Shown piece by piece: positions 1 to 26,900 of a DNA stretch of 29,409 bases (position 1 is its first letter; each line of letters starts with the position of its first letter). Under the pieces are notes generated by a model, which was not told the origin of the DNA, made no database searches, and was given only the letters and a program-made list of their open reading frames with translations. A program made the translations under genes and the position numbers. Source of the stretch: a virus. The stretch lies in IMG/VR virus record IMGVR_UViG_3300030329_002794, positions 1 to 29,409 of that record, one strand, 5' to 3'.

Positions 1-2663
1 TCAACTAATTGTGTTCTAGAGAATTGTCTTCCTTCAGAATCAGTATATTTAATATCACCAACATCTCTTCCTTCTCTAACATTAGTAGCGTAATCACTAA
101 TAAAATCATACATGTTTTCAGCTGTACCAATATCTAGTATTTTATAAGGAGTAGTTTTATTAACAAGTCCATTCCAAAACTTAATCATACCACCCATTAC
201 AGCAGAGTTTTTCCCAACTCTACCAGCGCCAACTTCATCAGAAAGATAATTAAACCACTCTACACTAGTATCTAAATTTTGTTTGTTTCTTTTTAAACGA
301 CTTTTTATTCTATTGTAAGTTTTTAAATCTTTTTCTTTTAATACTCTTCTAAAATCTTTTATATATCCTTTCTTTTCGTTGTCGCTAAGATTATTAAATC
401 CTCCATCAACCATGTTGTGTAGTACTTCGTGAATACCAACAGATTTCCATGCGCCTGTTTCAGCTGCTACCTCTCTATTTATAAATATAGAACCATCAGC
501 GTTTTTAACAGCGTCAGTTTTCATATATTTTGCTCTTCTAGCGTTTATTTCAGCTTCTGTTAAATTAGGATTATCTGCTAAATCTTGTTCAATCATAGCG
601 TCAGCATATTCATCTGCGTTATCAAAAGCTTGGAAAGCTTTACCTTTTTTAGCTTGTTGTTCAGAAGCAAACTTTTCTTGTTTTTCTGTTAAAGCTCTTC
701 TAGTTTCTATTGCTCTTTTAGTTTGTCCAGTTTCGTATTCTAAACCTTCATATTGAGAAACTATTTGTTGCACTTGTTGTTTAGCGTTTTCTACTTTACC
801 TCTATTAGATTCACTAATACCTTTCTTCTCTTCGTTTTCAATTATAGTTTCTAATTGTATTAATTTTTCTCTATCTTCTTTAGATATTCTTTTATCTATT
901 CTAGCGTTTATTTTAACAGCTTGATTTCTAAGATCCATTTCGTGTTGTAAAACTTCATCTTTTCCATCAATTTCAATTCTTGTTACAGCATCTATATCAG
1001 AGGTTTCTGGATCTGATAAATAATTGTAAACGTCAGCTCTAGTAGCTTCTTTACCATTTATTTTATAAGTAGTAGGGTTCATCATTCCTCTAGCAACAGC
1101 AACAATTGTCCCAGGTCCACCAGATACAGCTTCTAATGTAACTGCTTTAGTGTCTATTTCTTCACCTATGGCTAATTGACTGGTAGCCTCACCAAGAGCA
1201 CCCATTCCACCTTCAATAACAGCCCCTTGTAAAAATGTTCTTACTAATGGTCTTGAAAAGAATGGTGTTTTACCTCCCGTCGTTCCAGTTACTCTACCAC
1301 CGGTAACCTTACTTAAAACACTATCTACTTGTGGTACTTTAGAACCGGCTTTGGTAGCAATAATTGAACCTCCCGATGGAACAACTTGGGTTCCAGGTAA
1401 CGCTTTAGCGCCAGGGAGTGCTTTAGCACCAGGGAGTGCTTTTCTTGTTAATTTAGTAGTAGCTCCAGCTGTCTTAAATCCGGCTCCAAGCGCCGCGCTT
1501 CCAATTCTACCAATAGGCGCTATAGTTATAGAAGCGGCTAAACCTTCAAAAGCACCAATAACCATACCTTTTGTTATAGCTTTGTTTTTCATTTTACCCA
1601 TAGCATCCTCATCCCTCATAACCAATTGGGCGTTTTCAAAATTCCATTCTAATCCTCTACTAGCAACCTCTTCTCTAAGTAATTCACCCATTTTAGTACC
1701 AGCTTCTAATGCTCCTGATACACCACCAATTACACCACCTATAAATCCTCTTATTGCACCTTTTTTAGCTCCAACAGCAGCTCCAACACCAGCTCCTGGT
1801 CCACTCCAAGCTGTAGCCGCGGCTCCAACACCAGCTCCAATAGCTGCCCCTGTACTCGCTCCAATTAAACCTCCCTTCCATGCCCAATTTAAACCTTCTT
1901 TTTCTCCAGCGGCTCTAATTAAACCTGTTACAGAAGAGACTAAAACCTCAGTAGCTAAAGAAGGATTTTCTATATAACTAGCTTCGGATAAAGATCTAAC
2001 CCATTCCCAACCTTTTTTATCACTTCTATTAACGTGTCTTTGAAATTCTATCATTTCAGTTGAAACAGGTATCTTAGACAATGCTTCCATAGCTTCAAAA
2101 GCTTCTTTTTCTTGCTCTGGAGTCATAGAACCATCAGAAGCATCATATAAATTAGATAACTCCGTTAAATAAGATGCGCTTGTCCAGCCACTTACAGCAG
2201 CTCGATATGTATCACCTAACCAATCCGTTAATTGATTTGAAGTACCTTCTCCTGGGCTAAACCAATCTTCTATCCACGTGTTTGTTTCAGGTGTATGGGT
2301 TAGTCCATATTTTTTCATTATTTCTGGATCTGGAGACTCCTCTTTTGTTATTTGCCACCATCCAAGTGGATCGTCCCAAATAGATTCATTTTGTTTTGCA
2401 ATACCCGTTTGTGCTGTGTAATATATATCGTCAACGGTTTTATTTCCATGAAATAATCTAGCACCCATACCTCTACCTTGTAAAAACTCTTCTACATCTT
2501 CATCATTAACATTTATCCATGTGCCATCTTGAGTTTTCCATTTACTAACACCTTCACGTATCAATCTAGACGTCTTACCTTCCTCACTTCTAATAAAGTC
2601 CTCGACGTCCCAAGCTTGTATAATTACGTTTTCTCCGTTTTTTAAACGATAAGTATTACTCAT
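1..2663 (-). CDS. Large internal virion (cargo/ejection-type) protein with HExxH motif, partial
   Basis: The frame is open from an ATG at 2663 to the left edge, 887 codons with no stop, so the C-terminus lies outside. The start sits two bases after the previous stop. In order I see: a hydrophilic N-terminal 260 residues rich in Trp and Asp; a Gly/Ala-rich hydrophobic stretch at about 264-320 with repeated GxxxG spacing, like a glycine zipper; a short tandem repeat (ALPGAK) near 408-425; a charged helical, probably coiled-coil region at about 540-660; and an HEVLH motif at 745-749 preceded by GI, the HExxH signature of zincin metallopeptidases. A third zinc ligand is not certain; Glu residues in the EWFNYLSDE stretch some 45 residues later are candidates. 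Its place after the tail genes and the membrane-active-looking segment suggest a protein packaged in the virion and ejected with DNA. The function is inferred; the motif is directly visible. Confidence 0.75.
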   Translation of the reverse strand, partial: MSNTYRLKNGENVIIQAWDVEDFIRSEEGKTSRLIREGVSKWKTQDGTWINVNDEDVEEFLQGRGMGARLFHGNKTVDDIYYTAQTGIAKQNESIWDDPLGWWQITKEESPDPEIMKKYGLTHTPETNTWIEDWFSPGEGTSNQLTDWLGDTYRAAVSGWTSASYLTELSNLYDASDGSMTPEQEKEAFEAMEALSKIPVSTEMIEFQRHVNRSDKKGWEWVRSLSEASYIENPSLATEVLVSSVTGLIRAAGEKEGLNWAWKGGLIGASTGAAIGAGVGAAATAWSGPGAGVGAAVGAKKGAIRGFIGGVIGGVSGALEAGTKMGELLREEVASRGLEWNFENAQLVMRDEDAMGKMKNKAITKGMVIGAFEGLAASITIAPIGRIGSAALGAGFKTAGATTKLTRKALPGAKALPGAKALPGTQVVPSGGSIIATKAGSKVPQVDSVLSKVTGGRVTGTTGGKTPFFSRPLVRTFLQGAVIEGGMGALGEATSQLAIGEEIDTKAVTLEAVSGGPGTIVAVARGMMNPTTYKINGKEATRADVYNYLSDPETSDIDAVTRIEIDGKDEVLQHEMDLRNQAVKINARIDKRISKEDREKLIQLETIIENEEKKGISESNRGKVENAKQQVQQIVSQYEGLEYETGQTKRAIETRRALTEKQEKFASEQQAKKGKAFQAFDNADEYADAMIEQDLADNPNLTEAEINARRAKYMKTDAVKNADGSIFINREVAAETGAWKSVGIHEVLHNMVDGGFNNLSDNEKKGYIKDFRRVLKEKDLKTYNRIKSRLKRNKQNLDTSVEWFNYLSDEVGAGRVGKNSAVMGGMIKFWNGLVNKTTPYKILDIGTAENMYDFISDYATNVREGRDVGDIKYTDSEGRQFSRTQLV
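1393..1443 (-). repeat. 18-bp in-frame tandem repeat (ALPGAK units)
   Basis: Two nearly identical 18-base units lie at 1402-1419 and 1420-1437 (one base differs), flanked by a decayed third copy at about 1393-1401. They encode consecutive ALPGAK units inside the large internal virion protein. The repeat falls right after the hydrophobic region and is probably a flexible Pro/Gly linker that can change length by slippage. Confidence 0.8.
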
Positions 2664-2665
2664 TT

Positions 2666-4522
2666 TTAATAATTTTTCTGATTACCCATACTATAGTTTG
2701 TAGCGTCTTTATCAACAATTGTACTACCAACCATTTCTCTCATCCATTTTTGGAGTTTCTCTGCATTTGCAACATCATCTTCAGTGTCTTCTCCAAATTT
2801 TAAGAAATCATGATTATCAAGAGATAACTCCATTGATTTTTCATAATCATTAGGTCCAGGACCTGTTTTAAAGTATACATACATATAATCACCAGACCAA
2901 CCAGCTTCCTCAAAGAAGAATGTTCCTATAGAATCTGGATCTTTAGCCCAAGAATCTATATCGCCCGATCTATAATAAACATGCTCTCCTTCACCGTTAA
3001 TATATCCTCCGTATGCTTTATTTAACATCTCTTCAGCTTCCTCTTCTTCATAATCAAATATATTATATTGTCCATTAGGTCCGTCTACACCTTCCGTCCA
3101 TTTCATTTTAGTTAAACTATCAAAGATAGTAGAATCTCCCCATGTTTCGTGTTGATACCATGGAACAACTTTACCTTCTTTCCATGTTGATGGCTTTTGA
3201 CCTCCTTTACCACCTTTTTTACCTTTCTTTCCTTGTCCAGGTCCACCTTGACTAGAACCACTACTTGCTGATGTTCTTACTTGAGCCTGTTTGTACTCAT
3301 CAAATAAACCTTCATGATAAGTTATATAGTGGTTTCTAAAGTGTTGTTTTAAAGACATTTTTTCTCCAACCGCATTAGTATAAACCTGATCTAAACCATG
3401 TGACTTCATTTCTTCTATAAAAGTAGCAACATCTCCTTCAGAAACATCTAAATCTTTACCATAAGTATGTTTCATTAATTCCTCTACAAAATCCGTAGTA
3501 TCAAGTCCACCATATTGCGTATTACCACCGTTTAAACCATCCCAAATTAACGAACCTATAGCATCGTTATCCATACCATCAAGATACGAGTTTATTTTAT
3601 TTTTTTGAAATTGCCATGCAACGCCACTTTTTGTACCACCAGCTTCAATATACTGCATTGTGCTAGCAGTTACAGTTAAATGATCTTTCACCGCTTGGTT
3701 ATTTTTCATTTTAGGTGAAGACTGTTTTGATAAATCTAAAAACAAATGTGGTGCTGATTGAATAGTGGCACTTTCTCCACCTGGTCCACCTTGGCCAGCT
3801 GGATCTACCCAATAAACATTACCATCTATTATTTTCATATTATGTCCTTTACTGTAATAAATATCTTCCCAAGCTCTTCTTTCTTTATCTGTCATCATTT
3901 CACTCCACTCGTCTCTATTGGTACCCATGTTTCTCATTTTTAGTAAATTTTGATTAATTTTATCATAACTTACTAATTTACCTTGTTCACTTTCAATTTT
4001 TTGTCTTAGTTTATTGTATTTTTTAGTTCCAGGAGCCATTCTGGATATTTTCTTTAAATCTCGTTTAACAGAGTTACTAATCTTTATAGCTTCTCCAGCT
4101 ATATCTATTTCTGAATTACTTAATTGACCAAATATTTTACTGTCATCAAATTCTGGCATTACAGCCATCAAGGCTTCAAACTTAGCTCTGTCTTGAGCGC
4201 TTTTTGCTGTTAGATATTTTATAGTTGGTTTAAATAGTAAATCTAATGTTCTTCTAGTCTCTAATACCTTTCCTTCACCTTGTAATCTATAATAAGCTGC
4301 TTGTTTTTCTATTACACCACCACGTCTAGGCCCTAAATTAGCTATTTGTCTATCTATAGCCGTAGTATTATGACTAAAATCTTGAGCTGCTAAATCTTGA
4401 TAACCAACAGAAAACATTGGATTGTCTATAAGATCTGTAGGCATTAGCTCAGGCATCATTTGATCATACATTGTAGGATCAATTACTATTTCCTCTTCTT
4501 TTTCCTTTTTTTCTTCTGCCAT
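2666..4522 (-). CDS. Internal virion/cargo protein candidate, 618 aa
   Basis: A hydrophilic protein with no signal peptide or membrane segment. The first 12 residues are almost all Lys/Glu. Residues 40-220 are predicted mainly helical, and a low-complexity Gly/Lys/Gln linker at about 427-445 (GKKGKKGGKGG) divides it from a C-terminal acidic, aromatic-rich domain with many Trp-Ser and Tyr-Asp pairs. I recognise no enzyme motif. It lies between two proteins with features of ejected virion proteins, the neighbours being only 2 and 12 bases away, so a shared transcript and a role as an internal virion (cargo or ejection) protein are the best inference. An alternative is a tail accessory protein. 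The ATG at 4522 follows an AAATTAAATAAA-type leader seen also before other genes here. Confidence 0.75.
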   Translation of the reverse strand: MAEEKKEKEEEIVIDPTMYDQMMPELMPTDLIDNPMFSVGYQDLAAQDFSHNTTAIDRQIANLGPRRGGVIEKQAAYYRLQGEGKVLETRRTLDLLFKPTIKYLTAKSAQDRAKFEALMAVMPEFDDSKIFGQLSNSEIDIAGEAIKISNSVKRDLKKISRMAPGTKKYNKLRQKIESEQGKLVSYDKINQNLLKMRNMGTNRDEWSEMMTDKERRAWEDIYYSKGHNMKIIDGNVYWVDPAGQGGPGGESATIQSAPHLFLDLSKQSSPKMKNNQAVKDHLTVTASTMQYIEAGGTKSGVAWQFQKNKINSYLDGMDNDAIGSLIWDGLNGGNTQYGGLDTTDFVEELMKHTYGKDLDVSEGDVATFIEEMKSHGLDQVYTNAVGEKMSLKQHFRNHYITYHEGLFDEYKQAQVRTSASSGSSQGGPGQGKKGKKGGKGGQKPSTWKEGKVVPWYQHETWGDSTIFDSLTKMKWTEGVDGPNGQYNIFDYEEEEAEEMLNKAYGGYINGEGEHVYYRSGDIDSWAKDPDSIGTFFFEEAGWSGDYMYVYFKTGPGPNDYEKSMELSLDNHDFLKFGEDTEDDVANAEKLQKWMREMVGSTIVDKDATNYSMGNQKNY

Positions 4523-5595: not shown

Positions 5596-5931
5596 TTATT
5601 TACTACTAAGAGCCACGTTAGAGACCACCCTGTATATTTCAGCATGATCTGTGTCATTGTTTATTAATTTTACTTTAGCAAAATAACCTACTAAACTAGA
5701 ATCATTTATTAAAGTGTTTTTAGAGAACATTATAAAGGCACCGTCTGGTGGTAAGGGACCGTCAACAATTAAAAAACTACTAGCAATAGCAATAATTGGG
5801 CCTATTAATATAGGCACGCTTTCTGTATTATTAATATTACCTGTTGTAGTATATTCAACATAATAAGCATTGTCTCCTATTTGTAAAGAATCGTTATTTA
5901 AATTGTTTGATAAGTTTATTCTAATTGGCAT
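5596..5931 (-). CDS. Small beta-rich virion-associated protein, 111 aa
   Basis: A short, beta-rich protein with no membrane helix apart from a moderately hydrophobic stretch at 40-55 (VPILIGPIIAIASSFLIV). It starts with MPIRINLSNNLNNDSLQIGDNAYYVEY and ends with KVKLINNDTDHAEIYRVVSN. It lies two bases after the preceding tail gene and before the internal virion genes, so it is most likely a small tail or baseplate component. I do not recognise the family with confidence. The ATG at 5931 is the only sensible start; the 41-base gap after its stop holds only A/T-rich sequence. Confidence 0.7.
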   Translation of the reverse strand: MPIRINLSNNLNNDSLQIGDNAYYVEYTTTGNINNTESVPILIGPIIAIASSFLIVDGPLPPDGAFIMFSKNTLINDSSLVGYFAKVKLINNDTDHAEIYRVVSNVALSSK

Positions 5932-5933
5932 TA

Positions 5934-7205
5934 TTATGGTGTTTGAGTTCCTATGTTTATAAATTTGTCTAAGTCCATATATATTACTCTATCAGCGCTT
6001 GGATATTGATAAATTTGAATTTTCCCAGTCAAAGTCACTGTATCTGTAGACCCATATATAGTTACATAATTTCCTTGAGCTACTCCAGTTTGATCTAATT
6101 GCGTTTGAATACTTCCAGCCCCAGATCCTAATGTAGCATGAGAAGCACCTAACGTTACACTTTGCACCCTATTTGTACCAGCATTATTAACTCCTAGCCC
6201 AGCAATTGTGGTATTTGCTGATATGCCACGAGTACCATTTAGCGCTATATTAGCATCAGATGCATTTGACCTAACTTGTCTAGTTATTATACTCTCCTTA
6301 TAGCTCCAAGCGCTAGGATTAGCAGAGAAGTCTAATCCAATAGCGTTTTTTATAACAGCTTGACCATATCCTTTAAAAGTTAAAGTGTTACCATCAGGGA
6401 AAGTTTGTGACGAAGAAAGTACTAATGTTTTTGTATCATGATTAATAAGTTGAACTGTAGGTGTTCCTGATAAACTACCACCACCAGAGATACCTGTTAT
6501 CTGCATTCCAACAGCTAAATCTGTTGTATCATCAACCTTTACTTCAGCCGAGGATGACGTGGCCCCATCTACAGTATCTGTAGTTGTAAAGTATATCATC
6601 TCATCCATGCTTTCTATTAAAAAATTACCATTTCTTGGACTATCCGCGTCTATGTCAAAAACATATGTATTATTATGTACTAATCCATAACCATAAGTAT
6701 TACTTGCGGCAGATGATATAGTCCAATTAACATCCATTGCTACACTAACTGAAGAATTAGGTATACCAGTGCTGTCTATATTTGAAGGCATTGAAGCAAA
6801 ATTATTAGTATTTGTAGTTATAGGCGTTAATCTAACAGTAACGTTAGCGTTAGTTTGAGATATATCAGTTGACCAAAAAGCAGGATTATTAGACAAAGAT
6901 GATTCTATAGTTGTCCCACTAAGATGATCAGCATGCACCATAATCTTATATGCACTTCCTGACGCTGGGAAGTCTATAGGTATGTTAAAAAAACTTACAC
7001 CTAAATCTCCAGAAAGAAATTGAGTAGAATTATTATTGCCATCTACAAACGCTTTTGTTTCAAAATTATAAAATTCAGTAGGTGAAGCCGCGTTATAAAT
7101 TTGCACTTTAAATTTAGCACCTGGTTCACCAGAGACAGATAGGTATCTACGTTCACCAGCGGCGCGTATATCTGTTGTATTTATTGTTATATTATTTATT
7201 TTCAT
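5934..7205 (-). CDS. Tail/appendage structural protein, 423 aa
   Basis: Almost wholly beta-type sequence rich in Thr, Ser, Asn and Gly, typical of virion appendage proteins. The N-terminus (residues 5-60) has the look of an immunoglobulin-like or beta-sandwich domain, with VSGEPGAKFKVQIYN. Near residues 222-280 a segment with VDDTTDLAVGMQITGISGGG recalls motifs common in structural proteins of marine phages. Its ATG overlaps the TGA stop of the giant tail protein (ATGA, 7202-7205), so the two are translationally coupled and probably assemble together. It has no enzymatic signature. It could be a tail fibre, a tail collar piece or an adaptor; the exact role is not known from sequence. Confidence 0.75.
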   Translation of the reverse strand: MKINNITINTTDIRAAGERRYLSVSGEPGAKFKVQIYNAASPTEFYNFETKAFVDGNNNSTQFLSGDLGVSFFNIPIDFPASGSAYKIMVHADHLSGTTIESSLSNNPAFWSTDISQTNANVTVRLTPITTNTNNFASMPSNIDSTGIPNSSVSVAMDVNWTISSAASNTYGYGLVHNNTYVFDIDADSPRNGNFLIESMDEMIYFTTTDTVDGATSSSAEVKVDDTTDLAVGMQITGISGGGSLSGTPTVQLINHDTKTLVLSSSQTFPDGNTLTFKGYGQAVIKNAIGLDFSANPSAWSYKESIITRQVRSNASDANIALNGTRGISANTTIAGLGVNNAGTNRVQSVTLGASHATLGSGAGSIQTQLDQTGVAQGNYVTIYGSTDTVTLTGKIQIYQYPSADRVIYMDLDKFINIGTQTP

Positions 7206-10200
7206 TCTCCTGAAGTTATTGGTTCATAAATGAGATTACCATTATCAAAAATAGGTTCATTAGGATCGAGAGATATTGAGTTTACTACTGTACCTAGTCC
7301 TTGAAAGCTAAAACTAGAAGTATCTATAGTTGTATTTTTTCCTTTTATATAATTAAACCATTTACCTTCCTTTTCAATAAACTCCATGACACTTCCACTT
7401 TGTTCATTTGTGTCTATATTATCTACATACCACCCAGCTATATAACCTAATGGATTACCATCATTATCAACATCCTCATATAAATTATGGTTGCTAGAAT
7501 TATACACAACGTTTCCAGCAGCGTCTGTTTCACTTGTAAATTTCCCTACTCTTGATTTAGTTCCTTCGTAAGCTAAAGTATTATAACGTTTAATTTGAGA
7601 AGGACTATGGTTTAATAATGTTGTTATAGTAGAATTATATTGTACATCATAAAAGTTATTTCTTATTTCATTATCATGATGCCTCCATAATCTACCCTGA
7701 TCTAAAGTATAATACGCGTTAGACAAACTTAATCCATTTTCAGGAGTAAAAGATTTAAAACTTGTCCATCCTTTTACATCTTCACTAAAACTTACAGTTT
7801 TTGATGGTAAATCTAAGATTCTATTTAGTACAAAATTATCTAAACGACCAGAAAAATACTCTTCACTAACGAATATTACCAAAGTATTTCTAAGCAAACT
7901 AGGATCATTAGTTGAATCATCACCTATAATAAATTCCGCTTCAAAAGTTTGTTCAACATCTAAATCGCTAAACGCAAAACCTTCGCCATTAGTATTATAT
8001 AAATAACCACTAATTTTTCCAGTTACTGGATTTAAATTATCAACATCAAATAAATCAAATTTTAACTTATATTTATCACCTACTTTAAAATCAGAATTAA
8101 GTTCTTGATACATACTTGTGTCTATAGGTGCGTTATCAAATAAAGCATTTAAATTATAAGTGTCCCAAGTTATATATTGATCAGTTGTTTGATCAAATCC
8201 TGAAAACACCCAATTATTTATACTTCCACCTGAAAATATATTTGTTTTGTCTCTTAAACTAATATCTTTAATTTTAAAATTAGCAGGACCAGTATTGTTT
8301 TTTACGTTAAAAACTAATTTATTATTCCATCCACTTTGTGTACTATCCCCAACTTTTATACCATTAGTTTGTCCTATTACTCCTATTGCTGTTCCTGATT
8401 GAGTGAGGAATATATCTCCTTGATTAATAGTCGCATCTGTTTTACTGAAATTTAAATCTACCTTATACTCACCATAGTCATTTATTTCGAAACTACACCC
8501 ATGTCCAGTATCGCTTGCTGAGTGATCATCAGACAAAAGAATTCTACAAGTCATTATTCCAGTAAATCCACCATTGTTACCTTTAGCGCGAAAACGTAGT
8601 TCATAACCACTTTGACTTTCTACTGGATTTGTAGTTCCGGTGTTCCATCCATTATTGAAAAAATTCCAAAAACAATTGTTTCCATAATACGCATTATTCC
8701 AAGTGACCCACCCGTCTTTAAAATAAACTATTGGCATAGGCGAAAGAGCGTGTAGTTGCTTATGATTTTCATTACCTAAACTCCAATGACCCGCGTTTGG
8801 CATTATTCTTTTATTTGTTACATCATTAATTTCTACACGTGTTATTTCTACTTCACAGTTTTTCGAAAGGGTTAATTTTATCTTATCGCTAAAAGCTGGT
8901 CGGTCGTGCTTGAATATAACTTCTAAATATCCAGCGCCAATATTACTGTCGTCAAATTGTATGCTACCTTGATGGTTCCATGTTCCCACATATCCTTCTG
9001 GTAAAGGAGAACCATTGATAGGATCTCCATTTTGATCTTCAGGTATAGAAAAAGTATTAGTGGTAAAACTTGTGTGATCTGAATCTAATACACCACTCAT
9101 AACTACTACAGGATTGTATGTAATAGTAGTTTGGTCTATGTGTAATTTTACTTGATACCAATTCCCATCAATCCAATTTGTAACTCCAGATATACTAGAA
9201 GAATTTAAAGTCGTTAACGCTGTTAAATCTTGTTCAATTTGAACTCCTGTACTAGTTGAAGTTGATTTAATTATACTTCCATTTGCCTCATGTATACCAT
9301 CTGCGAAATAAGTTACATTATCAGCGCTCGCAGGTGTAACCCCATCCCAATACTGCGCTCCAGAAAGATAAGATACTATTGCCGTATCTAAATCGACATT
9401 AGAATTATTACGTGACCAATCAGGCATACCAGCATTACCAGGGCCATTATAAGTTATATCAACATGTTCCGTAACTTCATTTTGAATAGTGTTTATATCC
9501 AATCCATCCCAACCTGGATTTGTATCAGTTATAGGGTTAAGATAACTCCAGTTACCAACATTGGTAGTTCCATCTGCAATAACTTGTGAGTTCGTACCGT
9601 TCCATCCAAGAGCGGCGACATTATAATTATTTTCACCTTTTAAAATTAACGGTTGCTTTAGTCTTCTTGTTTTTCTTATTTGAATACTTTTTAAACGGAT
9701 GTCGTCACTGAAAGTTTCATCTGTCCCAAATCTAACTTTTAATTTTTTTATAACGATTCTTGCTGTATCTTCTGGATTTTGAGGATCTACTAATTTAAAA
9801 TGACATACATATGTTTTTTCAGAGTTTATTGTATTACCATTCAACCATTGAGAACCTACGGTACTAGTAGTTTGCCATCCTATAGCGCTACCATCAGTGT
9901 TTGTACCTGGGGTATAAGAAACATATCTTGGATCATGAATGTCAGTTATACCAGAGTATGCACCACCATCTACGTCAACGAGTAATGAACTATCAACTTC
10001 TTGATCAGTGTCAGTATCCCATAAAGTAATACGAGGACGAATTGAAGAACCACTTGTGGGTTCTATTTTAAATTGTATTCTTATCTCTTCTCCATTAAAA
10101 ATATCAGAGTTCCTTACTACATAAGGATTGTTAACACCATCCCAATAATTCTTAACTCCACCGTGTAAAATACTATCGTCTAACATATCTGTCATTGGCT

Positions 10201-13200
10201 CTACAAAGTCACCAACTTCTATATTATTTCCGCGAATATGATCATAACTAGTACCAGTTGTATTAACTGCTTCTCTCCAGTATTCATTACCACCACTGTT
10301 ACCCGAGTGATAATGTCCCCATTGATTATCAGAATAAGCGCTCCATTGACACCCAATACCTTGACCACCACCATTTCCAACTACTTCTGTAAATGGTCTA
10401 TCTGAAGCAGCGGTACTAGCCGTCCATTCATATATTATGCTATCAGAATCAGTATATTGAGCCACTGTTGTAGTAGAAGGATCAGGACTTATATTAGCAG
10501 AAGGGATACTAGGTACTGCAGCTACGTTTATTATATCAGCCTCTTGCTTTAACCATGAGTTATTTATTACTTTATAATCTACAACTGGAGAAGTTACTAA
10601 ATTAATTCCAAGAGGAAATAAACCTTCTAACAATAACTCTGGATTAGAACTTTCAGTTGTAGATACAAGTCCTTGTTCTATATTCTCATTAATTATTAAG
10701 TTTTCTTTAAAATGATCTGATAACGTTAAATTATAATCTTGCTTATATTGATCATACGATCCAATTAAATTCGTATATTGATTTAAATTATCTTTAAAGT
10801 AATCTTTCATACCATATTCAGATATAGGTGTCAAACCATCCATAGACAATCTTAATACAGTTCCTCTATTTTTATCTGTAAAATAAGCTCTATAAGATTC
10901 TTTAACAAAAGACTCTGGGTTTTGTGATATACCATAATCTCCGACAAATGGATTTGCGTCACCTAGAACAGCATTAGAAGCTACCACTTGATGACTACCG
11001 TCCGCATTATATAAAGCATTTTTATTTGCTGTAATACCAACAATTCTATCTTCACAAAGAGCAACTAAACTAACTCTTCTTGAAAATAATTTTTGAATAC
11101 TACCATAGGTTGGGTTTAAGTCTTTTGTAATTTTTTCCGCTGCTATAAATTGATTTAAATTGTTTATACCACTTGTGGAATTATACAGTCCAGAATATAT
11201 TAATCCATGTTTTCTATTTTCTTCTGCATAGGGCTGTTCTATTGTGCTAGATACTCTCATTCCGTTTGTAATCTTCATAGAATTAAAGTCATCTCTTACT
11301 CTATTAGATTCAACGCCATTTCCAAAAGATATACAATTGTACCAATTTAACCCTATAGGCATATTGTTACTATATTGTTCTAATTTTAACTTGTGTATAT
11401 TATATCCACTGCTCCACGATAAATTAATTCCACCAGTATTAAAATTTCTTAAAGTACCACCTGTTTTCCAACCAACAACTTTAGCAGAAACAAAACTACC
11501 GTCTTGGTTATAAATTTTTATAAATAAATCAAAAAGATCAGTTCCGATTGCATCTTCAACGTAATACCATTGATTTTGTGCTTGATGAGGATCTGGAAAA
11601 CCAGCACTATCACCAACCCATTTTCTAATGTTTGTACCATTTATTAATTGATTATAAAACGGAAACAAACCTTGTACAATTATAGTATCGTCACTCTCCC
11701 ATTCTCTTATGATAGGTAATTCACCTTCTGAAAATTTAGTTAAATCAGCATTGATCCAGCTTTCAGCGGTACTATTAGTATGTAAACTAAACATATTACC
11801 AGGTTTTGCAAATAATTCTCTATTTTTAGGGTTTAAACGAAATGGAATTGCGTTTGAAGCCTCGTAATATAAATTTAAGTCTGTACCTTCTTTAGCTTCT
11901 GTTTCAAATACAGCTGGGTTTGATTTAGTTAAATTACCTAAAATATCAGTATCCGGCTCTACAAAATCAATAAAACCTTTAGTGTCTGAATCAAGAGTTC
12001 CTGTTGGATCAAACGACGCTGCTGTTGGATCTTTATCTAGTTGTAATATATAACAAACTCTTCTATTGTCAGCTTTACCAAATTCAACTATTTTGTCCAT
12101 TAACGCTTGGGCTTGAGTAGACTCTCCTCTATTAGGAGTTGCACTTCCATAAAACGGTATTGTATCCACATCAAAAGAATCAGCCCATTCTCTAGCTTTA
12201 TCCTCTACAGATTCACCGGTTGTTTTATATTCACCTCCATCCCATTTGTATACAACGTTCCAAGAGGTATGATTGTATAATCTCTTTTTAATAACTCTTT
12301 TAATAGTATAAACCTCTTTATTCGTATCATCTCTAAATACAAATTGACTACCCTTTTTTAACATATCAACAATCCCTTGGTTAAATTGATTATTAAAACC
12401 TGGTTCCCAAGCACTGTTAGCTATAGACATATCAACAGGTTGTCTAGTATCATGGTTATTTATATGAATAGTACCTCTATCGTGAGCCCAATCCCAACCC
12501 CGTGCTAAAATATTTCCTAATCCATTTTTTAAAGCGTATCTTTTACTAGGTTTGCTATAATTTCTTAAGTTACTACTATCTATTTCTTCTCTACTCCAAT
12601 GTGTAGTGCCGTTGTGTAAATCTTCTCCACATCCAGAAAAAGATAAGTGCATAAAGTATTTTTTAGTAGAACTATTACCGTACGTATTATCTAATTTTTT
12701 ATATTGTGCCGATTCATTATGCCAAAATACAGGTACTTTTTGCCATCTTCTAATTGCGCCAGCCCCATCGTTTATAGTTCCTACGCCATTACTATCATAT
12801 ACCCGCGTTGCGTGTGGCGAATTTGTCATTGGATCAACAACTATAAAACCTTCTAAACCATTAACAACACCAGCTCCAGCTTGCGCGCCATCAGTTTGAT
12901 TACCACCATGCCACATCCTACCACAAGCGTGTGCAGATAAAGTATGGTCAGCTTGGCCAGCTTCAACGTGTAATGCATCTATAAACCATTGTTTGTGAAA
13001 TTTACCGCTTGAACCACCATGAGACCACTTGGCTGAAGTATCCATTATACCACCACTACTGTGAATAGAATCCGGATCATCGCTTGGATCTTGTCCTGCG
13101 CCATTAAAATTCAATAAAGCATTGTTAGCATAAACCCCAGCTGCGTTTTCATCATCCCTATGATAATAAGCCCCAATTGTTTCACCGGTATTTACTAAAC

Positions 13201-15382
13201 TAGGATCTAAAACAGTATCAAAAAAAGGCTCTATTAATTCTTTAGTTAATTCATTTGATTTTATTTTCACAAAAAATCTCCCTGAAAACTGTTCTAATGA
13301 TTTCTGTGTTCTTCTTTCAATTTTTACACCAAAATCATCCGCGCTTGTACACCAGTCATCAGCATCAGCTATTGGGTTAGCTAGCCTTATTCTCCAGTAA
13401 TCAGTAGGAGATCCATCGCCTACTTTTTCTACAGATGCTATTCTGTATTTTTGTGACTTTCTATCAGAACTAGTGTTAGCTGGCGCGCTAGTACTTGCTC
13501 CCCCTGAAAACATTTGAAAAAATAAATAATCATTATTATTAACAGCGTTACTCAGATCAGTTCCTTTAGCATTAGTCTCCCAAGCATCACGATTCATAGT
13601 TATAAAATTAAAACCAGGTTGTGGCGCGTGTAAACCACCAAAAAGATCAGTTGTTACAGGTGTTGTACTAGCGCTAGTATCGTCTTGAGCGGATCCAATA
13701 ATATTATAGTCATATTTTATAGCTTCTGGAGCTTGATTAGATATATCTAATATTTTAAATTTATTTTTCTTACTTACTTGATTTGATCTAGCCCCATAAG
13801 TCTTTTTCATTATCAAATAATCTTCTTCTTGTACTTTATTTCTATCTGAAGAAGGAAATGATATCCATAAAGTATCTTCTTCATTTTTATCTTCTATAAT
13901 GTTTTGATAAACTTTATCCATTAAAAGATTATGATAGTCTTCAGATGTTTCTTTTACAAAAATCTTAAAATAATCAGCCCATAAAGGCGGATACGGGTGG
14001 TCTAAATTTATAGTTAATTGATTGGATTGACTCGCGCTTAAACCATCAGTGTTTTTCCATGGTATCTTTATAGATGCCGCGCTTGATGTTTGTACAGGTG
14101 TTTCTCTACCATATTTATCACCGTAAACAATACCTAATTGATAATTTCTTTGTGATTTTATAGATGGTAAACCACCAGATTCAAAATCAATAACGTTTTC
14201 ATTTATAGTTCTTTGTTGATAATCAACACTTAAAGAAGCCATAGTTTGGCCTTCTAAAAAATTATGTCCTTGAGTATAATTACCATAAACAATTCTATTA
14301 CCTGTTACCTCTTGAGACAATGCTTTTTTAGGTACATTATCCCATGATCTTACTAGTTGATCTTCTGGAACAGCAGCGTATATATTTTCGTTGTTTACTG
14401 TATATTTTCCTTTAAAATCAGTTGTAATTCCTTGAAAAGGAGGATTGTTTGTATTCCACTCGTTATCTGTTTTCTTAATGTTAGCTATAGAATAAACTAC
14501 ATTAGTATCTTCTTCTTTATACAATATATCTATTTGAATAACGTCTTTAGGTATATAATCTGGAACAAAATCAAAGATTTCTATTTCCTTTATTCTATTT
14601 ATCATACCAGCGTTATACGGTTCATCTATAGGTAATGTAAATTCGCCAGCTTCAAATATAGTTTGTGAAAACGGTCCAAAAGGAGAATATTCTCCGTCTA
14701 TATATTTATATCTAGTAGAAAATCTTATAAATTTATTTTCAAATAAAAAGTCTTCTTCTCCCTCGTCTTCTTCGTCTTTATCGTCTGGGTTAAAACCAAT
14801 TACATTTATACTAGGCGCCTGTAGAGGACGTTTTTTAATTATAGTTATATTTTCTTCTTCTATATCACCTTCATCAACTCCATTAATTATTAATTTAGTG
14901 TGAGTTACAGAATCAACAGTTCCTTCTATACATCTATCAATATTTATTTTTCTTGGTTCATTTTCATTATCTGTCCAAAATAATAAATTATCTATTATAT
15001 TTATACCTGTTATTGTTTTATTGGGAAATTTTAATACAGCGGAATCTGTATTAGCTTTAGTGTCGACAAATACTAGAGTAGTTAAATCAGTTTTTAAAGA
15101 ATATTGTAAAATATAATCTGTACTGTTACTCTTTACAAACCAATATAAAGTATCGTCTTTTTCATTTGAAATACTACCAACACAAATAGAGTTTTCTCCT
15201 TGATTTATTATATCATCTACTCTAATATTACCTAATAAGTTTTGAGCAGTACCAACGTCTGATCCATCAGAAGTAGTAATTTGTATATTTTCTGCGTCTA
15301 TGTATTCTCCACTAGGAACAAGTCTCTCGTCAAGATCCTTGTTCATTTTGGCCTTGAAAAAACTGTTTACAATATCTGGCAT
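7202..15382 (-). CDS. Giant tail stabilization/muzzle-type protein, 2726 aa
   Basis: The N-terminus carries a signature recalled from tail stabilization proteins of crAss-like and related marine phages: KMNKDLDERLVPSGEY at 12-27, then SDGSDVGTAQNLLGN. Segments such as WISFPSSDRNKV, KILDISNQAPEAIKY and KQWFIDALH belong to the same conserved core, roughly residues 1-1350. In Crassvirales these proteins close the tail tube as part of the muzzle. The remaining half is unusually long: several beta-sandwich stretches resembling carbohydrate-binding modules occur near residues 1760-1830, 2140-2190, 2255-2320 and 2430-2500 (for example YELRFRAKGNNGG and KYKLKFDLFDVDN). A His/Trp-rich zone lies at about 785-830. 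It ends in TGA overlapping the next start. A structural role is well supported; receptor or glycan binding by the C-terminal part is inference. Confidence 0.8.
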   Translation of the reverse strand: MPDIVNSFFKAKMNKDLDERLVPSGEYIDAENIQITTSDGSDVGTAQNLLGNIRVDDIINQGENSICVGSISNEKDDTLYWFVKSNSTDYILQYSLKTDLTTLVFVDTKANTDSAVLKFPNKTITGINIIDNLLFWTDNENEPRKINIDRCIEGTVDSVTHTKLIINGVDEGDIEEENITIIKKRPLQAPSINVIGFNPDDKDEEDEGEEDFLFENKFIRFSTRYKYIDGEYSPFGPFSQTIFEAGEFTLPIDEPYNAGMINRIKEIEIFDFVPDYIPKDVIQIDILYKEEDTNVVYSIANIKKTDNEWNTNNPPFQGITTDFKGKYTVNNENIYAAVPEDQLVRSWDNVPKKALSQEVTGNRIVYGNYTQGHNFLEGQTMASLSVDYQQRTINENVIDFESGGLPSIKSQRNYQLGIVYGDKYGRETPVQTSSAASIKIPWKNTDGLSASQSNQLTINLDHPYPPLWADYFKIFVKETSEDYHNLLMDKVYQNIIEDKNEEDTLWISFPSSDRNKVQEEDYLIMKKTYGARSNQVSKKNKFKILDISNQAPEAIKYDYNIIGSAQDDTSASTTPVTTDLFGGLHAPQPGFNFITMNRDAWETNAKGTDLSNAVNNNDYLFFQMFSGGASTSAPANTSSDRKSQKYRIASVEKVGDGSPTDYWRIRLANPIADADDWCTSADDFGVKIERRTQKSLEQFSGRFFVKIKSNELTKELIEPFFDTVLDPSLVNTGETIGAYYHRDDENAAGVYANNALLNFNGAGQDPSDDPDSIHSSGGIMDTSAKWSHGGSSGKFHKQWFIDALHVEAGQADHTLSAHACGRMWHGGNQTDGAQAGAGVVNGLEGFIVVDPMTNSPHATRVYDSNGVGTINDGAGAIRRWQKVPVFWHNESAQYKKLDNTYGNSSTKKYFMHLSFSGCGEDLHNGTTHWSREEIDSSNLRNYSKPSKRYALKNGLGNILARGWDWAHDRGTIHINNHDTRQPVDMSIANSAWEPGFNNQFNQGIVDMLKKGSQFVFRDDTNKEVYTIKRVIKKRLYNHTSWNVVYKWDGGEYKTTGESVEDKAREWADSFDVDTIPFYGSATPNRGESTQAQALMDKIVEFGKADNRRVCYILQLDKDPTAASFDPTGTLDSDTKGFIDFVEPDTDILGNLTKSNPAVFETEAKEGTDLNLYYEASNAIPFRLNPKNRELFAKPGNMFSLHTNSTAESWINADLTKFSEGELPIIREWESDDTIIVQGLFPFYNQLINGTNIRKWVGDSAGFPDPHQAQNQWYYVEDAIGTDLFDLFIKIYNQDGSFVSAKVVGWKTGGTLRNFNTGGINLSWSSGYNIHKLKLEQYSNNMPIGLNWYNCISFGNGVESNRVRDDFNSMKITNGMRVSSTIEQPYAEENRKHGLIYSGLYNSTSGINNLNQFIAAEKITKDLNPTYGSIQKLFSRRVSLVALCEDRIVGITANKNALYNADGSHQVVASNAVLGDANPFVGDYGISQNPESFVKESYRAYFTDKNRGTVLRLSMDGLTPISEYGMKDYFKDNLNQYTNLIGSYDQYKQDYNLTLSDHFKENLIINENIEQGLVSTTESSNPELLLEGLFPLGINLVTSPVVDYKVINNSWLKQEADIINVAAVPSIPSANISPDPSTTTVAQYTDSDSIIYEWTASTAASDRPFTEVVGNGGGQGIGCQWSAYSDNQWGHYHSGNSGGNEYWREAVNTTGTSYDHIRGNNIEVGDFVEPMTDMLDDSILHGGVKNYWDGVNNPYVVRNSDIFNGEEIRIQFKIEPTSGSSIRPRITLWDTDTDQEVDSSLLVDVDGGAYSGITDIHDPRYVSYTPGTNTDGSAIGWQTTSTVGSQWLNGNTINSEKTYVCHFKLVDPQNPEDTARIVIKKLKVRFGTDETFSDDIRLKSIQIRKTRRLKQPLILKGENNYNVAALGWNGTNSQVIADGTTNVGNWSYLNPITDTNPGWDGLDINTIQNEVTEHVDITYNGPGNAGMPDWSRNNSNVDLDTAIVSYLSGAQYWDGVTPASADNVTYFADGIHEANGSIIKSTSTSTGVQIEQDLTALTTLNSSSISGVTNWIDGNWYQVKLHIDQTTITYNPVVVMSGVLDSDHTSFTTNTFSIPEDQNGDPINGSPLPEGYVGTWNHQGSIQFDDSNIGAGYLEVIFKHDRPAFSDKIKLTLSKNCEVEITRVEINDVTNKRIMPNAGHWSLGNENHKQLHALSPMPIVYFKDGWVTWNNAYYGNNCFWNFFNNGWNTGTTNPVESQSGYELRFRAKGNNGGFTGIMTCRILLSDDHSASDTGHGCSFEINDYGEYKVDLNFSKTDATINQGDIFLTQSGTAIGVIGQTNGIKVGDSTQSGWNNKLVFNVKNNTGPANFKIKDISLRDKTNIFSGGSINNWVFSGFDQTTDQYITWDTYNLNALFDNAPIDTSMYQELNSDFKVGDKYKLKFDLFDVDNLNPVTGKISGYLYNTNGEGFAFSDLDVEQTFEAEFIIGDDSTNDPSLLRNTLVIFVSEEYFSGRLDNFVLNRILDLPSKTVSFSEDVKGWTSFKSFTPENGLSLSNAYYTLDQGRLWRHHDNEIRNNFYDVQYNSTITTLLNHSPSQIKRYNTLAYEGTKSRVGKFTSETDAAGNVVYNSSNHNLYEDVDNDGNPLGYIAGWYVDNIDTNEQSGSVMEFIEKEGKWFNYIKGKNTTIDTSSFSFQGLGTVVNSISLDPNEPIFDNGNLIYEPITSGE

Positions 15383-26093: not shown

Positions 26094-26365
26094 TATTTAG
26101 ATCTCCCTTCCGCGAACCCTTTAAAGACTTTCTCTTTTTTCTCTGGTTCTTTACCTTCAATAATATTCTCTTCATCTTGGATTCTATTGAGTATTTCAAA
26201 AGCATCAAAAATGGCGAGTTTTTTGGTAGCGGCAGCATTCTTAAGTCTGTCTGCAGTAATATCATCTCCGCTATCGACGATAGCTTCTTTTGCAACTTTG
26301 ATAAGTTCATCAACTGCTTTGTGCCCAGCTTGGATTATACGCTTCTTCGTTTCCTTGATATTCAT
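26093..26365 (-). CDS. Small terminase candidate, 90 aa
   Basis: A short, helical protein. The stretch ITADRLKNAAATKKLAIFDA followed by FEILNRIQDEENIIEG is similar to helical small proteins found just upstream of large terminase genes in marine phages, and position, size and coupling (TAATG with terL) fit a small terminase that selects DNA. There is no recognisable helix-turn-helix, so this is inference. It begins inside the end of the preceding gene, with a 56-base overlap (26310-26365) in a different frame. No later in-frame Met exists, so the overlap is real if this is a gene; an ATTAAAT leader just before the ATG supports the start. Confidence 0.7.
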   Translation of the reverse strand: MNIKETKKRIIQAGHKAVDELIKVAKEAIVDSGDDITADRLKNAAATKKLAIFDAFEILNRIQDEENIIEGKEPEKKEKVFKGFAEGRSK

Positions 26366-26900
26366 ATTTAATTGTAATAAATTTATTCATAACTCTATAT
26401 AATCTCTTGTTATCTATTATGAATTCGTAAGTTGAAAATGGAGTAAAACCTACCAATTCTCCTTTTTTGTATATACCATCAGTATATTTAACTATACCTA
26501 TACAAGTCTCTTCTTGATTAGCGCTTAAATTGTTTCTTTCTTTAATAGGCTGTACGAAACAATATCCTTTTGGAGCTTTCCATTTATCTTTTCTTTTGTA
26601 TAAAAAAACTTGATCTTCTTTTACGAAATAAGTATTTTCATTAAAAAAACTTCTACTATTTTTTTCTTTACCATACACGTCGTGCCAACGTCTAAATACA
26701 TTGTGGTGTGTTATTATAGTATCTCCTGGTTTTATTTCTGTTTCAAAAGCTGTAGGAACTGATTTAACAATAGCTTCTCTATTTACAAATTGGTGATTAT
26801 AAACCTCAGTATTTAATATAAGATCTTTATCATCAATTTTTGTAGTATTGTTATATCTATTTCCTTTTGGCTCTATAACAAAGTCAAAAGGCGCCTTCAT
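26310..26900 (-). CDS. Tandem GroES-like domain protein (possible co-chaperonin), 196 aa
   Basis: The protein reads as two copies of a GroES/Cpn10-like barrel. Copy one, about 5-103: FDFVIEP, REAIVKSVP, KPGDTIIT at 57-64, then FNENTYFVKEDQVFLYKR at 86-103. Copy two, about 110-181: GYCFVQPI, IGIVKYTD, KKGELVGFTP at 145-154, then FIIDNKRLYRVMNKFITIKY. These match the order in GroES: an N-terminal strand with R-V-V-K-like pattern, a G-[ED]-[VI] strand, V-K-x-G-[DE]-x-[VI], then a C-terminal E-x-x-[LY]-x-[IV]-x-x-x-[DI]-I strand. Copy one has an insertion at 70-86. If correct it could partner host GroEL to fold capsid proteins as T4 gp31 does. Fold assignment is by eye and needs profile search. 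Confidence 0.6.
   Translation of the reverse strand: MKAPFDFVIEPKGNRYNNTTKIDDKDLILNTEVYNHQFVNREAIVKSVPTAFETEIKPGDTIITHHNVFRRWHDVYGKEKNSRSFFNENTYFVKEDQVFLYKRKDKWKAPKGYCFVQPIKERNNLSANQEETCIGIVKYTDGIYKKGELVGFTPFSTYEFIIDNKRLYRVMNKFITIKYEYQGNEEAYNPSWAQSS

Follow-up and report, generated by a model that had tools for sequence, protein, structure and literature searches.

A giant protein encoded by an uncultured phage carries a zincin-like metallopeptidase domain, and the short motif FS[KR][ST] recurs at the borders between the modules of its relatives. We consider the best explanation, with a probability of about one half, to be that the predicted zincin processes its own giant protein at the FS[KR][ST] seams, because auto-processing has been proposed for phage polyvalent proteins (PMC5512222) and a repeated border motif is what such processing predicts. 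An initial annotation of this DNA had offered three roles for the putative peptidase, in processing of virion cargo or in action on the cell envelope or on host proteins, and the module-border motif favours processing of the protein in which it lies. Zincin domains have already been predicted in many giant phage proteins; new here are the modular architecture of the relatives and the enrichment of FS[KR][ST] at module borders. We found no published description of a recognition motif for zincin auto-processing, and a short border motif makes this long-standing proposal directly testable.

The window (the whole stretch of DNA analysed, 29,409 bases) covers positions 1-29409 of a virus record that is 31,080 bases long. 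Judged by sequence, its source is an uncultured phage whose nearest cultured relatives have flavobacteria as hosts; the large terminase is closest to that of an uncultured podovirus (63%), followed by Flavobacterium elemo phages (45%) and Cellulophaga phages (~38%). All of the following late-operon genes are on the minus strand:

Late operon, minus strand, in order: holin, GroES-like protein, large terminase, portal, virion structural proteins, 2,726-residue muzzle-like protein, smaller genes and, last, the giant ORF studied here
7202..15382, minus strand: muzzle-like tail protein of 2,726 aa, upstream of the giant gene, with matches to Pfam crAss_MUZ_C and phrog_14478
3..2663, minus strand: N-terminal 887 residues of the putative giant virion protein, with the ATG at 2663 and open at the left contig end

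The muzzle-like protein matches phrog_14478 (virion structural protein) with E=1.7e-143, and crAss_MUZ_C with E=2.6e-5 and 25.0 bits, just under the Pfam cut-off of 27. Matches to a further family, phrog_18548, fall in two ORFs: residues 2528-2615 of the muzzle-like protein (7202-15382) match its N-terminal part and a separate 111-aa ORF (5596-5931, minus strand) matches its C-terminal part, an arrangement that looks like one protein divided between neighbours. The GroES-like co-chaperonin gene (26310-26900, minus strand; phrog_13932, E=9.1e-18) adjoins the terminase, and a 618-aa protein (2666-4522, minus strand) has a PqqD-like match below threshold (E=3.7e-4, 21.2 bits vs 23.4).

The giant gene is open to the contig end and is therefore known only to its first 887 residues; the complete ORFs of relatives are mostly 2,000-3,000 aa long. 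In two annotated relatives, Podoviridae sp. ctfjg026 and Elemovirus, the corresponding position of the late gene order is taken by a gene of 3,859 or 3,694 residues, respectively, the latter (elemo gp18) being annotated as 'structural protein'. Both giants have HExxH motifs of their own, but neither is significantly similar to the zincin profile described here or has the FS[KR][ST] repeat pattern. The giant gene of the window lies behind muzzle and tail genes in a late operon of podovirus type, in keeping with a large virion protein that is packaged or ejected, and from the position after the muzzle gene and the annotation of elemo gp18 we infer that the giant protein is probably packaged in the virion. 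Two hydrophobic stretches precede the peptidase domain:

1689..1880, minus strand: Gly/Ala-rich hydrophobic stretch, residues 262-325, GxxxG-like, a candidate membrane-active segment
1482..1577, minus strand: second hydrophobic stretch, residues 363-394

The first of these, at about residues 262-325, bears out the glycine-zipper-like hydrophobic region that had been noted in the same protein, and residues 124-380 match phrog_32588 (E=1.5e-24). Opposite the glycine-rich stretch runs a 208-aa frame (1351-1977, plus strand), most likely a mirror of the Gly/Ala codons and no gene.

The peptidase domain and its predicted active-site residues are as follows:

66..650, minus strand: zincin-like metallopeptidase domain, about residues 672-866, from the 90-row alignment A4 and an AlphaFold2 model
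417..431, minus strand: HEVLH, residues 745-749, comprising two predicted zinc-binding His and the predicted catalytic Glu
258..260, minus strand: E802, in EWFNYLSD where the next core helix begins, invariant (90/90 sequences) and a candidate third zinc ligand

The HEVLH motif, described initially as intact at residues 745-749 of a long protein, was located in the ORF and is real rather than a chance match, any HExxH arising in only 0.24% of 5,000 shuffles of the window protein. No match came from tblastn against cultured phages with the window protein and two complete relatives, or from scanning viral contigs directly with the window protein. Because of the latter result, the muzzle gene served as the way into the relatives, whose own zincin and C-terminal modules were then used to extend the search. 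H745, E746 and H749, which had been singled out beforehand as the residues to follow, show no variation among 90 aligned relatives, and neither does E802, a fourth residue absent from the initial annotation (90/90, alignment A4). These four are the sole fully conserved catalytic-type residues across the 90 divergent relatives (median pairwise identity 29%); the Leu of HExLH is likewise invariant in alignment A4, and the spacing from HExxH to E802 in relatives is 48-80 residues. Since 18 first-scan rows beside the window were preselected for HExxH, the fair count is that HExLH is kept in 80/80 loci fetched, in scans with the relatives' zincin domains, by the patterns [DE]E[WI]FTAF and Y[ND]FLK[DE]Y, both of which omit HExxH, and of which the former favours the E802 region and the latter does not.

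In the proposed active site, H745 and H749 would bind zinc, E746 would activate water, and E802 would be the third protein ligand. It is conceivable that the domain is instead a structural or metal-binding relic in which HExxH is kept for folding or packaging without proteolysis, as packaging of the N4 vRNAP needs its MPTase region (PMC5512222) and four distant giants have HDxxH variants. We regard this as improbable, however, as the catalytic Glu E746 is dispensable for zinc binding and yet is kept in 90/90 sequences at ~29% identity.

An AlphaFold2 model built from the 90 sequences (pLDDT 83, pTM 0.75) contains a strand at 677-680, helices, strands at 718-720 and 726-729, the HExxH helix at 742-756, and a helix starting at E802 (residues 163-173 in model numbering). 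The polyvalent MPTase core has three strands, an N-terminal helix and two C-terminal helices, the first with HExxH and the second with a Glu (PMC5512222), and our model shows a minimal zincin core as so described: there is a three-stranded sheet, the helix-sheet-helix-helix order agrees at the level of secondary structure, and the invariant Glu is predicted to lie downstream on the next core helix. An earlier model from 22 sequences (pLDDT 72) missed the sheet, and a Foldseek search with it was uninformative. With the 90-sequence model, Foldseek recovered no zincin from the PDB and nothing at E<4; the best match in a viral library (E=0.058, probability 1.00) was to the model of a protein of 1,475 residues from an uncultured virus, and the remaining weak viral matches include crAss-like and podovirus giants. 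The lack of a PDB zincin and the weakness of the viral matches count against self-processing. No Pfam metallopeptidase family was matched by the window protein or 22 relatives, and PDB profile searches with the zincin, the C-terminal module and the HAD module gave no useful match. The metallopeptidase reading is nonetheless well supported by HExxH taken together with an invariant Glu on the core helix that follows and a predicted zincin core, and as far as sequence and predicted fold can show we regard it as near certain. The initial annotation was thus largely right, since phage polyvalent proteins and the N4 virion RNA polymerase are known to contain such metallopeptidases, and the predicted domain is a new divergent clade of this known type.

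Comparison of 57 complete relatives shows that the zincin and the last ~700 residues are common to 55-56 of the others and that the middle is highly variable. The relatives consist of exchangeable modules in a row, flanked on one side by a conserved N-terminal part with the zincin and on the other by a C-terminal module of 700 residues, also conserved. As a set, the 57 show what characterises polyvalent proteins, a giant multidomain phage protein with varying modules around the zincin. In most of them, glycine-rich hydrophobic stretches occur at two places, ahead of the zincin and close to the C-terminus. A HAD-like middle module (DFDDTLA, LTAR) is present in 35/57 by motif, a polynucleotide kinase family is matched in one relative (phrog_415, E=6.2e-5), kinases of the AAA_33/zeta-toxin type are found in two and LPD18 in one. 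The C-terminal module is very common, with at least 591 confirmed loci. Among the matches listed, 72 complete giants were picked by that module alone, and these comprise (counts combined by hand) 57 with this zincin and HExxH, 10 with another HExxH domain, four with HDxxH and one short or split ORF; HExxH is kept in 58/58 zincin domain matches of this sample, again among the matches listed. HDxxH replaces HExxH in L172:1031, L229:945, L205:868 and L213:868 (protein positions), and FS[KR][ST] is absent from all of these, although four are too few to prove a link.

The window protein has a single full match to the border motif, 136 residues past H745, and several relatives have a site at the equivalent position:

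12..23, minus strand: FSRT, residues 881-884, a member of FS[KR][ST] and a candidate processing site just after the zincin

FS[KR][ST] occurs at 0.73 per 1000 aa in the zincin giants, compared with 0.05 in the remaining ORFs of these loci and 0.045 after shuffling, an enrichment of about 16-fold. Raw counts are inflated by homology among the giants, and repeats were therefore tallied within single proteins. FSKS is the top repeated 4-mer, with at least two copies in 21/57 proteins (shuffle maximum 5), and when K and R, and S and T, are merged, within-protein repeats are seen in 38/57 (shuffle maximum 21). The motif lies within 10 aa of homology ends at 75/82 sites, against a mean of 40 and a maximum of 53 in 500 rotations, and at 71/82 sites against a mean of 37 when the motif is masked. 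Motif matches and masking can both pull BLAST ends to the sites, by different causes, so that neither version is free of bias, yet both give the same picture, with a large excess. Neighbouring sites are typically separated by 120-420 residues, and the HAD module occupies exactly one of these intervals in several relatives (L088, L116, L117).

This placement by itself names no protease, and the giant might be processed at FS[KR][ST] by another enzyme, either a phage prohead protease or one from the host. We think this very unlikely, in that no prohead protease was recognised within the window by the libraries used, and the zincin sits in the same polypeptide with one site after it. FS[KR][ST] could alternatively be a recombination seam or a docking motif. 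The strict rule that the motif occurs only where the zincin is was rejected, as FS[KR][ST] is absent from 18/58 zincin-bearing giants of the C-terminal-module sample, among the matches listed, and five giants with other HExxH domains have no site. In a small sample, other zincin groups had no comparable repeated motif. The many giants without sites, the lack of the motif in other zincin groups, the four giants with HDxxH, and the packaging of N4's comparable protein as a whole all count against self-processing.

A plausible course of self-processing is that the giant modular protein, of which the window ORF would be the N-terminal part, travels in the virion and is cut by its own zincin at the FS[KR][ST] linkers between modules, either in the head or after ejection. 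Cleavage would release an N-terminal fragment that contains the peptidase together with the glycine-rich, putatively membrane-active stretch, the enzymatic modules of the variable middle, and the conserved module at the C-terminus. More tentatively, we suggest that the entry proteins of a widespread family of uncultured phages, relatives of the flavobacterial podophages, are packed as a single polyprotein that processes itself by zincin cleavage at FS[KR][ST]. The interchangeable modules, such as HAD phosphatase, kinase and further enzymes, may then travel as one chain and act separately in the host, and the seams may also be points of module exchange in evolution. If true, a podovirus moves many entry enzymes through its narrow tail as one chain, and the module boundaries of uncultured phages can be read from sequence.

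Both auto-processing and roles as host-directed effectors have been proposed for the metallopeptidase domains of polyvalent proteins (PMC5512222), and the zincin could be an active peptidase acting in trans after ejection, on the envelope or on host proteins, with the seams having some other origin such as recombination. The domain is fixed and its neighbouring modules vary, and the N4 vRNAP, which has such a domain, is packaged unprocessed (PMC5512222), both of which are consistent with action in trans. This would, however, leave unexplained the recurrence of a single short motif at the seams of these same polypeptides and its absence from the phages' other proteins, and we consider it rather unlikely, if the strongest of the alternatives.

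The zincin-like MPTases of polyvalent proteins (Iyer et al. 2017, PMC5512222) resemble the domain described here in having HExxH in one core helix and a Glu in the next, a three-stranded sheet, a giant multidomain phage protein as context, and proposed auto-processing. They differ in that this domain and 22 relatives are without a Pfam match and belong to a phage group around flavobacterial podoviruses, and in the recurrent FS[KR][ST] seam motif, of which the parts of PMC5512222 that concern the terms searched make no mention. The N4-like virion RNA polymerase is likewise a giant ejected podovirus protein with an HExxH domain, its C1 domain (PMC12633501), whereas the zincin here is N-terminal to the variable modules. 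An RNA polymerase reading was rejected because no RNA polymerase family was matched in three complete relatives or 54 middle regions and because D.DGD, the crAss-like RNA polymerase motif and the one for which we scanned, is absent from the 57 complete giants, the rest of the window's own gene being missing from the record. The crassvirus cargo proteins (PhicrAss001 gp45-gp50, PMC10172136) are also encoded after the muzzle and are large cargo ejected via the tail, but the main text of PMC10172136 mentions no protease, and the muzzle match here is just under the Pfam cut-off.

Two inserts were seen within the HAD-like module. In L099 (residues ~1640-1760) the module is interrupted by KVIFLAGGAGSGK, a P-loop kinase-like sequence that L125 has in the same module, which suggests that the giant may carry a polynucleotide kinase-phosphatase whose role might be to mend cut nucleic acid during entry. 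In L085 (residues ~1640-1790) and L151 this module has another insert, which by eye resembles a domain of the ADP-ribosyltransferase type.
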